Source: Trichocoleus sp. FACHB-46 (lineage in GTDB: Bacteria > Cyanobacteriota > Cyanobacteriia > FACHB-46). Taken from it: a DNA stretch of 64,000 bases. Both the position numbers and the translations under genes were made by a program. Each line of letters begins with the position of its first letter. The stretch's first letter is position 1. The notes under the pieces were generated by a model, which was given only the letters and a program-made list of their open reading frames with translations, did no database searches and was not told the DNA's origin. Location of the stretch: the NCBI RefSeq assembly GCF_014695385.1, contig NZ_JACJOD010000007.1:124001-188000 (forward strand), read 5' to 3'. This document shows positions 61,086 to 64,000 of the stretch, one piece after another.

Positions 61086-61595
61086 ATGGGAATCTCGCTT
61101 GAGATATTTAGCCTGTATCGGTTAGCCCAAGAGGATGCGAACTGTAGCCATTACCTCCTGCTGAAAGTAGATCAGGCAGCGTTTAGTAATGCTGATGCAG
61201 GTGAGTATAACTATGTAGTTGAGGTTGCAGACCGAATTAGAGAGGCTTTAATCGAAGTATATAGAGCAGAGCAGCTAGCTAATGAATGCACTGAATTCCA
61301 TGTAGCCACTCTGATAGGAGAATTGCAAAATACTCCGATTGGGGAGGAGCTGCGCCAAGAACATAGCAAATTCTATCTAGATTTATGGGTGGCAGAAACA
61401 CGATTTGGTCACCCTTGGGTTGTCCTGGGAACAGCAGAGGATGAAGAGGCATTTTGGCAGCAGGTTGAGGAGGATGGAGACTTTGCAAGACTAGAGGCAC
61501 TCAGACCAGCAGCAAAGCTGCGAGCATTTTTTCTCACGGAGATGGATATATGGCGAAGTCGCTACGGGCATCAAGTGAAGGATTGGCGATCGTAG
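61086..61595 (+). CDS. hypothetical protein (169 aa)
   Basis: The 169-residue acidic protein has no membrane segment; a helical N terminus precedes DLWVAETRFGHPWVVLGTAEDEEAFW. The family is unknown. Its last 46 bases overlap the start of the NB-ARC gene, so the pair is probably coupled. Confidence 0.65.
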   Translation: MGISLEIFSLYRLAQEDANCSHYLLLKVDQAAFSNADAGEYNYVVEVADRIREALIEVYRAEQLANECTEFHVATLIGELQNTPIGEELRQEHSKFYLDLWVAETRFGHPWVVLGTAEDEEAFWQQVEEDGDFARLEALRPAAKLRAFFLTEMDIWRSRYGHQVKDWRS

Positions 61596-63076
61596 ATCGG
61601 GCACGGCAGCGTCGTGGTTGGACTAAAACGAGCACAGCTCGTTGGTGGCAAGACGCCAATACTTCTAGAGCCACCCTCCGCCGTTTTTGGCAAGGCGATC
61701 GCATTCAACCAGATATCTTTATTGCGCTCTGTCAAGCTGTAGGAATTAGCGACTGGGAAGCGATCGCCGAACCTCTAGAACTATCTTCTCGACCTCCTCA
61801 TTCTTCACTCCTCACTCCTCACCTAGACCTTGATGAAGCCCCCGATGTCGAAGCCTTTTACGGACGAGAGCCAGAACTCCAACAGTTAGAGCAATGGATT
61901 CTGAGCGATCGCTGTGAAATAGTGGCGATCGCAGGTCTGGGAGGTATTGGTAAAACGGCTCTAGCTCTAGCTTTGACAGAACGAGTTCAAACAGAGTTTA
62001 GTTTTGTGCTCTGGCGATCGCTGCGATCTGCGCCTTCTTTTCACCACCTGCTAGACAGTATCCTTCAGCCGTTCGATCCAGCTATCCCCCAAACCTTTCA
62101 GCAGCGGGTCCACCAACTCATCCAGCATCTCCAGCAACATCGCTGTCTACTTATTCTCGATGGGCTAGAAACTGTCTTGAAGCAGGAGAACACATATACC
62201 CTGTTTCTCCTCACCTATCTCCTACCTGCAACTCATCAAAGCTGTATTCTGCTGACTAGCCGAGAACGTTTGTCAGAGCTGGAAGAAGTGGCCCGAAATA
62301 GAGCATCAGTGCGCTCTATGACTTTGCAAGGTCTGCTGCAAGCGGAAGCCATAGAGCTATTAAAAGCAGGTGGCATCACGGGCAATCAAATGGAGCTGTT
62401 AGCCCTAAGCCGCCTTTATAATGGCAATCCTCTCGCCCTCAAACTAGTGACCCCCCTGATTCAATTTATTTTGGGAGGCAGCATCGCAGCCTTCCTCAAC
62501 CAAAAGACCTTAGTTCTAGGCGATCGCCTGAGAGATGTCCTCAATCAGCAACTCGATCAGCTTTCGGACCTAGAGCGAGAACTTGTCTACTGGCTGGCAA
62601 TTTGGCAGGAACCGATCTCCTTCTGTCGCCTGCAAACTCATCTCCTGCATTCCCCTGACCTGTCTCTGGTGTTAGAAGCCTTGGCAAATCTAGAACGGCG
62701 ATCGCTTCTAGAAAAATGGTTTAGTACCAACGAACCTGCCTTTACCCTACAGCCGCTAATCATGAAATTGGTTACAGAAGCGTTGATTGCCCAAGCAACC
62801 CAGGAAGTTGAACAGGTCTTGCAGAGCCATGATGTTCGTGGGTTCAAACTGCTGAGAACCCATTGGCTGATGCGCCCTGGTACAGACGATATTAAAGGCG
62901 ATCGCATTTTGAGCCAGCTACGAGAAGAATTGTGGCGTATTTATGGTGCAGCTCTCCCATCCGTCTTGCAGCAAATTTTGCCACTTCTAAAAGAGCAATC
63001 TCCCCTCGTGATTGGTTACGTCGGTTGCAATATCATGGCCCTGCTGACACAGCTTAATTTAGACCCAACTCATTGA
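61550..63076 (+). CDS. NB-ARC ATPase with cyanobacterial N-terminal module, C-terminal repeats missing
   Basis: The 508-residue protein begins with the cyanobacterial module (LRASSEGLAIVDRARQRRGW...RFWQGDRIQPDIFIALCQAVG, about 5-66), thought to be a DNA- or ligand-binding helical domain. A NB-ARC core follows: P-loop GLGGIGKTA (129-137), Walker B LLILDGLE (200-207), and a winged helix around 330-420. Related proteins usually continue into pentapeptide or WD40 repeats after GYVGCNIMALL; this one stops six residues later. Truncated or regulatory form is plausible. Its start overlaps the preceding gene. Confidence 0.85.
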   Translation: MAKSLRASSEGLAIVDRARQRRGWTKTSTARWWQDANTSRATLRRFWQGDRIQPDIFIALCQAVGISDWEAIAEPLELSSRPPHSSLLTPHLDLDEAPDVEAFYGREPELQQLEQWILSDRCEIVAIAGLGGIGKTALALALTERVQTEFSFVLWRSLRSAPSFHHLLDSILQPFDPAIPQTFQQRVHQLIQHLQQHRCLLILDGLETVLKQENTYTLFLLTYLLPATHQSCILLTSRERLSELEEVARNRASVRSMTLQGLLQAEAIELLKAGGITGNQMELLALSRLYNGNPLALKLVTPLIQFILGGSIAAFLNQKTLVLGDRLRDVLNQQLDQLSDLERELVYWLAIWQEPISFCRLQTHLLHSPDLSLVLEALANLERRSLLEKWFSTNEPAFTLQPLIMKLVTEALIAQATQEVEQVLQSHDVRGFKLLRTHWLMRPGTDDIKGDRILSQLREELWRIYGAALPSVLQQILPLLKEQSPLVIGYVGCNIMALLTQLNLDPTH

Positions 63077-63557
63077 TTAGTCGCTATTTCCGCGATGAGT
63101 GAGCGCTCGCATTCAATCCAATTTCTCGATAGATTATTTTTAAAGTTAAATGTAGCAATCAATACATTAACGCAAGTGCTAACTACCGATCTGAGAAATA
63201 CCAAATTCAGTCAAACCAAGGCAACATACCCTACCTATGCAAGTACAAATAGTGCACCTAATGCTTCTAGAGCAAGCTTTATAGAAGCTGCAAGACTGCA
63301 TTTCATCATAGCCGAAGCCTAAAAACAAACAGTTTTGAAGTTAGCTCAGCGTAAAAATTGCTGGATCAATTTTGGGCCAACTAATCTGTGATGAAGATCA
63401 CAAGTTTAGATGATCTTGATCGCGCTTGTTTCAACCCACAACATACATACTTATGAATGACTCAACTCTAGCCGAGTCATCAACAGGGAACACACGACTG
63501 GCCGACAGAATCCATTGGAAGCTGTCGGTTTTTTATTGCTTTGGAATTGATGAATGG
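63077..63557. other. intergenic region, 481 bp, with a small RNA candidate
   Basis: This lies between the NB-ARC gene and the convergent partial gene at the window end. The left part holds a 75-codon frame (63095-63322) with no family and no ribosome site. It does not continue the NB-ARC repeats. The right part holds the RNA candidate listed separately. Confidence 0.5.
63457..63537 (+). ncRNA. candidate Yfr2/Cyano-1-type small RNA
   Basis: A 7-bp hairpin (63457-63463 with 63474-63480, ATGACTC/GAGTCAT) is followed by a 21-base unpaired linker (63481-63501) containing CAGGGAACACAC. A terminator follows: stem CCGACAG (63502-63508) with CTGTCGG (63522-63528), then six or more T. The order hairpin, single-stranded conserved linker, terminator hairpin and a length near 80 bases match the cyanobacterial Yfr2 (Cyano-1) RNA family, whose linker carries a GGAAACA-type motif; here it reads GGGAACA. 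A CATACT box at 63445-63450 is a possible -10 element. Confidence 0.55.
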
Positions 63558-64000
63558 TTAGCGAATCGCACCCATCGTATTTTTCCAGGACAACTCCTTA
63601 CAAAGAATTTGCAGTGCCCGTTGGTCTGGTCCCGTAAAGAAATCACTTTTGATCAAAGCTTCTAAGACCTGATGGGTTAGTTGGGAAGCAAACGCACCAC
63701 CCGCCCGCAAAAGATGGCTGTAGTACCGAAATTGTGGTCGGCCCTCTTGGCTAAGGTGAAAGCAATGAATTTCACTCTCAGTCATTTTGTAGACGGGAGT
63801 ATTGACTGGAACCACAATGCTGGGGATGCCATGCTGTCCATAAAGCCCGTCGTCTTGCCGCTCCATCGTGCCGATCAAGACAGTGCCTAGGAGAACGCGC
63901 GTTTCATTAATTAGATCGGGAGTGAAGATCGGATCGGGTTCGCTCGAAAGCCGTGGCCCTGAATTGAGGAAGTTGGGGTTGAAGAGTTGCGAGTTATAGA
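63558..64000 (-). CDS. partial gene, unknown function (C-terminal 147 residues)
   Basis: A minus-strand frame is open from the window edge to its stop at 63558 (about 147 codons seen, 5' end outside). It contains PNFLNSGPRLSSEPDPIFT, RVLLGTVLIGTMERQDDGLYGQHG, and FRYYSHLLRAGGAFASQL. I do not recognise a family. Internal TTG/ATG codons (near 63878) are not the true start because the frame stays open to base 64000. Confidence 0.65.
   Translation of the reverse strand, partial: YNSQLFNPNFLNSGPRLSSEPDPIFTPDLINETRVLLGTVLIGTMERQDDGLYGQHGIPSIVVPVNTPVYKMTESEIHCFHLSQEGRPQFRYYSHLLRAGGAFASQLTHQVLEALIKSDFFTGPDQRALQILCKELSWKNTMGAIR

Follow-up and report, generated by a model that had tools for sequence, protein, structure and literature searches.

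The window analysed here is a stretch of 64,000 nucleotides from Trichocoleus sp. FACHB-46, and the feature of interest lies in an intergenic gap close to its end. Upstream, on the same (+) strand as the feature, is a gene for an NB-ARC/NACHT-type (STAND) ATPase (61550-63076) that could be a defence or signalling protein. Downstream is a convergent gene on the opposite strand, which has its 3' end at 63558, fills 63558-64000 and continues beyond the window (L340:1558-2160); it encodes a conserved 200-aa cyanobacterial protein for which neither Pfam nor NCBIfam gives a match, and an allophycocyanin-like gene lies behind it. The gap itself holds, on the + strand, a predicted small RNA gene of about 77 nt (63458-63534), which the covariance model R1 (see below) scores at 95.1 bits. 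The predicted start of transcription at 63458 (about 63456-63459) is derived from the spacing to the -10 element and from the point at which conservation sets in among most relatives.

Direct reading and folding place a 5' hairpin, ATGACTC-aactctagcc-GAGTCAT, at 63457-63480, with arms of 7 bp (63457-63463 and 63474-63480) and a loop of 10 nt. It is followed by an unpaired linker of 21 nt, CAACAGGGAACACACGACTGG (63481-63501), within which direct reading finds CAGGGAACACAC at 63484-63495 and, at 63486-63494, the conserved core GGGAACACA, a candidate pairing site. The gene closes with an intrinsic terminator (63502-63534), recognised by direct reading, folding and covariation, in which a 7-bp stem, CCGACAG (63502-63508) with CTGTCGG (63522-63528), is extended by G-U pairing and followed by TTTTTT at 63529-63534. 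An initial annotation had described a 7-bp hairpin, a 21-base linker and a 7-bp stem with a T-run at 63457-63537, and this arrangement is confirmed. Its further points, that neither neighbour accounts for the terminator and that a small non-coding RNA of about 80 nt is encoded in the gap, also hold: the gene upstream stops at 63076, the one downstream is read from the opposite strand, and the predicted 5' end and the intrinsic terminator fall near 63457 and 63534, respectively. The window has a single occurrence of the 12-mer CAGGGAACACAC and the genome has two, against about one expected by chance; the second site (L035 around 1501; G000:C11:64088-64099) precedes a terminator-like stem and TTTT, and has neither a CRP (cAMP receptor protein) box nor the 5' hairpin.

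The 77-nt RNA folds with -24.8 kcal/mol (z = -3.0), a value equalled by 2 of 200 shuffled sequences, and a 96-nt version gives z = -2.9. Such scores are only suggestive, and the case for a structure beyond chance is based instead on conservation and covariation. A plain DNA search recovered the RNA in 28 of 59 relatives (one match, in G007, being weak), with conservation running from the hairpin through the T-run and a second conserved block upstream. From 65 diverse copies taken from named genomes (Leptolyngbya, Nodosilinea, Phormidium, Stenomitos, Leptothoe, Thermosynechococcus and others) an alignment was made for model R1, which then found the RNA in 187 of the 390 genomes sampled from the class, spread over 85 of 160 genera. 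Many of the 65 copies had been fetched by the pattern GAGTCATCNACAGGGAACA, which makes its bases invariant from the outset. Divergent lineages came in through the model search, which is not tied to that pattern; their linkers read TAATAGGGAACACAC or CAATGGGGAACACAC and their hairpins are altered, and it is for this reason that GGGAACACA is taken as the true core. Nearly all of these divergent members keep it despite their changed hairpins, and one, L209, reads GGGAAAACA.

The terminator co-varies, and 53 cells of the first alignment had changed on both sides of the stem as compared with 22 in shuffles; for the upper stem, none of 500 shuffles reached the two-sided count. The 5' hairpin is nearly invariant in sequence among the close relatives of this first set. 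In the divergent set three of its five pairs have changes on both sides that preserve the pairing, in an alignment that was fitted to the model and is biased towards it, and such changes are also visible by eye (e.g., GCTCAG-TTAACC-CTGAGC). There was no match to the RNA in the plasmid collection. An 18-base pattern gave two matches outside the cyanobacteria, in Acidimicrobiaceae and Muribaculaceae records, which are taken as chance because they are few against the expectation for such a pattern in a collection of that size. No conserved open reading frame runs through the RNA, 39 of the 65 copies lack any closed frame, and the idea of a small protein gene was rejected because no frame is conserved across copies. 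As far as sequence can establish it, the region is a separate gene for a small non-coding RNA, roughly 77 nt long and presumably transcribed.

Promoter anatomy

The most informative feature of the locus was absent from the initial annotation and ends 55 bp before the interval marked there. This is a perfect CRP box, TGTGATGAAGATCACA, on the + strand at 63387-63402, with its centre at 63394.5 or about -63.5 from the predicted start. With 0.02 perfect TGTGA-N6-TCACA sites expected in the window, this is the only one there, and the 6.56-Mb genome has six in total. A further one of the six (L471; G000:C24:190625-190640) precedes, by slightly more than 100 nt, a gene that encodes a CRP-family regulator (L154), which may point to a cascade. 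The position of the box at 63387-63402 (about -62 to -64) is presumably that of a class I site, judging from E. coli CRP promoters. A second and weaker CRP-like dyad, GATGATCTTGATCGCG (63409-63424, +), sits closer to the start by 22 bp, where a -35 element would normally be found, and the -10 element is CATACT (63446-63451, +). There is no sigma-70 hexamer pair on the + strand at the window promoter, and no -35 element is conserved across copies.

This arrangement recurs throughout the family. The half-sites GTGA-N6-TCAC stand upstream of 135 of 142 copies, against 0.13 expected from shuffled upstream regions, and in 117 copies the distance from the box to the -10 is constant within 1 bp; the -10 reads NATANT in 135 copies, which were selected by that pattern. 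Independent evidence comes from 28 divergent copies found with a model from which upstream DNA is absent: 25 of them are preceded by a box with a score of 8 out of 10 or more, and the ATA of the -10 is kept as well. A degenerate second dyad 22 bp nearer the start is found in most copies and recurs in divergent families, the mean score at +22 bp from the first box being 5.0 out of 10 across copies versus 2.5 at neighbouring offsets. In 15 copies the best box occupies the position of the second dyad, and in 14 copies the spacing to the -10 is about 22 bp shorter. Two copies depart from the pattern, one without a CRP box (L032; G008:C11:151209) and one with a disrupted 5' hairpin (L029; G016:C1:511990), and both are possibly decaying or rewired.

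For cyanobacterial CRP, TGTGAN6TCACA has been published as the consensus, and activated promoters have a TAN3T -10 element at about 22 bp on the downstream side (PMC2633013); relative to the -10 the second dyad has the position of that activating site. The scan reported there covered the upstream regions of protein genes only, so the present promoter would have gone unseen. What is found here is a CRP box at activating distance from a -10 element, as called for in a CRP-activated small RNA gene. The anatomy of the promoter can be read from the DNA itself, and by all sequence signs it would be activated by cAMP-CRP.

The linker and its proposed mode of action

The reading that we favour, with reasonable confidence, is that of an independent small RNA gene that would be activated by cAMP-CRP and would act in trans by pairing through its linker. 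At high cAMP, a SyCRP1-type CRP dimer would bind the box at 63387-63402, and probably also the weaker dyad at 63409-63424, and would recruit RNA polymerase to a promoter that has no -35 element. Transcription from near 63458 would yield an RNA of about 77 nt ending at the intrinsic terminator (63528-63534), in which the core GGGAACACA, exposed between a stable 5' hairpin and the terminator hairpin, would pair with mRNAs. By such pairing cAMP-CRP, usually an activator, would gain a post-transcriptional arm, probably a mostly repressive one.

That the core is the likely site of mRNA pairing is suggested by three things: the linker is unpaired, it is the most conserved part of the RNA, and there is an analogy with Yfr1 (RF01116). 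Yfr1 is likewise a short RNA, in which an unpaired linker joins a 5' hairpin to a terminator hairpin; the linker bears a widely conserved motif that pairs with mRNAs. That said, the Yfr1 motif is CACUCCUCACACC (PMC4734099), whereas the core here is GGGAACACA, and Yfr1 was reported in every genome surveyed (PMC4734099), whereas the present RNA occurs in about half. Membership of the Yfr1 family was rejected, since there is no RF01116 match in 63000-64000 (the sole match in the genome is on contig 14, G000:C14:88559-88624) and the linker is CAACAGGGAACACACGACTGG rather than CACUCCUCACACC. In short, the hairpin-linker-hairpin layout is closer to Yfr1 than to Yfr2, but the motif is another.

Searches for targets looked for exact complements near start codons, a design that interrupted or G-U pairing escapes. 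Neither exact complements of the form TGTGTTCCCY in eight genomes nor, in six genomes, GTGTTCCC at up to 28 nt from an ATG gave a gene that recurred among the candidates, and exact core complements near ATG (149 in six genomes) were barely above a reversed-pattern control (127). Repeated hits within one genus were located in coding or unannotated DNA. The same lack of a conserved mRNA target, together with a linker that is conserved as sequence and copies that are sometimes in tandem, would suit an RNA that is under CRP control and acts by binding a protein, as a sponge or cofactor, instead of an mRNA. Moreover, ACAGGGA in the linker matches the core of the CsrA-binding consensus, ACARGGA. We nevertheless regard protein binding as rather unlikely: there is one motif per RNA, unlike in CsrB-type sponges, and CsrA itself (PF02599) is absent from all 59 relatives in a search to which the controls E. 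coli, B. subtilis and T. maritima were positive. On that count (0 of 59 genomes) a CsrA sponge of the CsrB/RsmZ type was rejected.

The predicted regulator

A suitable candidate is encoded in the same genome. It is the one close relative of SyCRP1 there (the L156 protein), with the cAMP cassette GELFGEMAPLDEVPRSTD and the recognition helix RETVTR, as in E. coli CRP. Residues one, two and six of this helix make the DNA contacts (PMC2633013), and by its residues this SyCRP1-type CRP should be fit to bind both cAMP and TGTGA. Both motifs, GELFGEMAPLDEVPRSTD and RETVTR, were matched in 28 of 30 proteins from relatives, the other two falling outside the search expression.

Among the 59 relatives, a close SyCRP1 relative is present in all 27 model-positive genomes, and the RNA is found in none of the 10 genomes without one; about 21 relatives have SyCRP1 and no RNA. 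This co-occurrence is consistent with control by SyCRP1, in statistics that ignore shared ancestry. SyCRP1 as the regulator is a prediction, because other CRP-family regulators bind similar sites. The genome encodes ten proteins with a CRP-type HTH above the family cut-off, related regulators are known to recognise similar sites (PMC2633013), and one might imagine that the RNA is correctly identified and owes its main control to another of these proteins reading the same box, e.g., L163, a second SyCRP1-like protein. Such a regulator seems improbable to us, since an RS-type cAMP cassette and RETVTR were seen together only in the L156 protein; L163 also carries a cassette of RS type, yet its recognition residues read EETAKI. 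The NtcA site, GTAN8TAC (PMC3898017), also differs from the conserved box.

Neighbouring genes and known small RNAs

The proximity of the same 200-aa protein gene in many genomes might point to an element that acts in cis, as a leader, attenuator or terminator of a neighbouring gene. This protein family adjoins the RNA in 39 of 98 loci, with the allophycocyanin-like gene behind it in 17, and the other loci have several unrelated families in its place. The downstream genes vary in strand as well as in family (same strand in 37 of 94 loci, opposite strand in 57), the RNA has a promoter of its own, and of its two neighbours in the window the downstream one is convergent and the upstream one stops 380 nt short of it, all of which makes a function in cis very hard to sustain. 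A cis leader or plain terminator was rejected on the variety of neighbours and strands. Several genomes (L127, L109, L087, L056 and others) carry two to five tandem copies, often about 165 bp apart, and in these arrays, the largest of which has five (L127), most copies are complete with their own CRP box. Since neighbours vary and tandem copies mostly bring their own box, the unit under selection comprises box, promoter and RNA, and the RNA is an independent transcription unit with changing neighbours.

A search of the window with all 4227 models of Rfam 15 gave nothing at gathering level; the scores for ZEB2_AS1_1, Vimentin3, Hrs13 and sR35 were far under the cut-off and without meaning, and Yfr1, Yfr2 and Cyano-1 had no match in 63000-64000 up to E<=10. 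The initial annotation had assigned the RNA to Yfr2/Cyano-1 and called its layout the one described for Yfr2, and here it was mistaken. Yfr2 combines a single-stranded 5' end of the GUGUGAGGAG type with one long hairpin whose 12-nt loop is conserved (PMC2662882), none of which appears in the hairpin-linker-hairpin fold found here. The Cyano-1 model (RF01701) instead finds three loci elsewhere in the genome, on contigs 41, 10 and 31 (that on contig 41 alone above the cut-off), where a GTGTGAGGAG-type end is left unpaired and CGAAACACGG forms the loop of a long hairpin, the published Yfr2 anatomy (PMC2662882). The two RNAs are alike in being cyanobacterial, about 80 nt long, closed by a terminator and often present in several copies, and in a GAACAC-like single-stranded stretch, GGGAACAC, that resembles GAAACAC of the Yfr2 loop, but with another architecture, another motif and no match to the family covariance model we give membership practically no credence, and it was rejected.

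In logic the RNA is like CyaR of enterobacteria, which also has a CRP box upstream of a small RNA gene. CyaR is activated by cAMP-CRP and carries the cAMP signal into post-transcriptional control; there is no sequence relation, and CyaR relies on Hfq and has another pairing motif. Within the cyanobacteria, NsiR1, NsiR3 and NsiR4 are small RNAs tied to a transcription factor, and NsiR1 occurs in tandem copies, but these serve nitrogen control (NtcA or HetR) whereas the box here is of CRP type; comparison was by regulator rather than directly by sequence for RNAs outside Rfam. No paper with the motif, or with any CRP-linked cyanobacterial small RNA, was found in the open-access literature. Published tables may already include a homologue, e.g., among the predicted small RNAs of Nostoc 7120 in Table S3 of PMC4734099, and transcripts of homologues may stand unnamed in published start-site tables. 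The family is apparently undescribed in cyanobacteria and is not in Rfam 15, to which it would add a missing family.

The cAMP-CRP complex is a global regulator in many bacteria, and in cyanobacteria cAMP is a signal of light, desiccation and nitrogen. To our knowledge, few direct targets of cyanobacterial cAMP-CRP are known (pili and motility, some nitrogen genes). Evenly poised, in our judgement, is the wider proposal of a class-wide small RNA family dedicated to cAMP-CRP in cyanobacteria, with GGGAACACA as a near-universal pairing core, through which cAMP would control a set of mRNAs post-transcriptionally and whose dose would be tuned by tandem amplification of complete CRP-driven genes. 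If true, a CRP-driven small RNA in about half of the sampled genomes, Thermosynechococcus relatives included, would explain how an activator can bring about repression.
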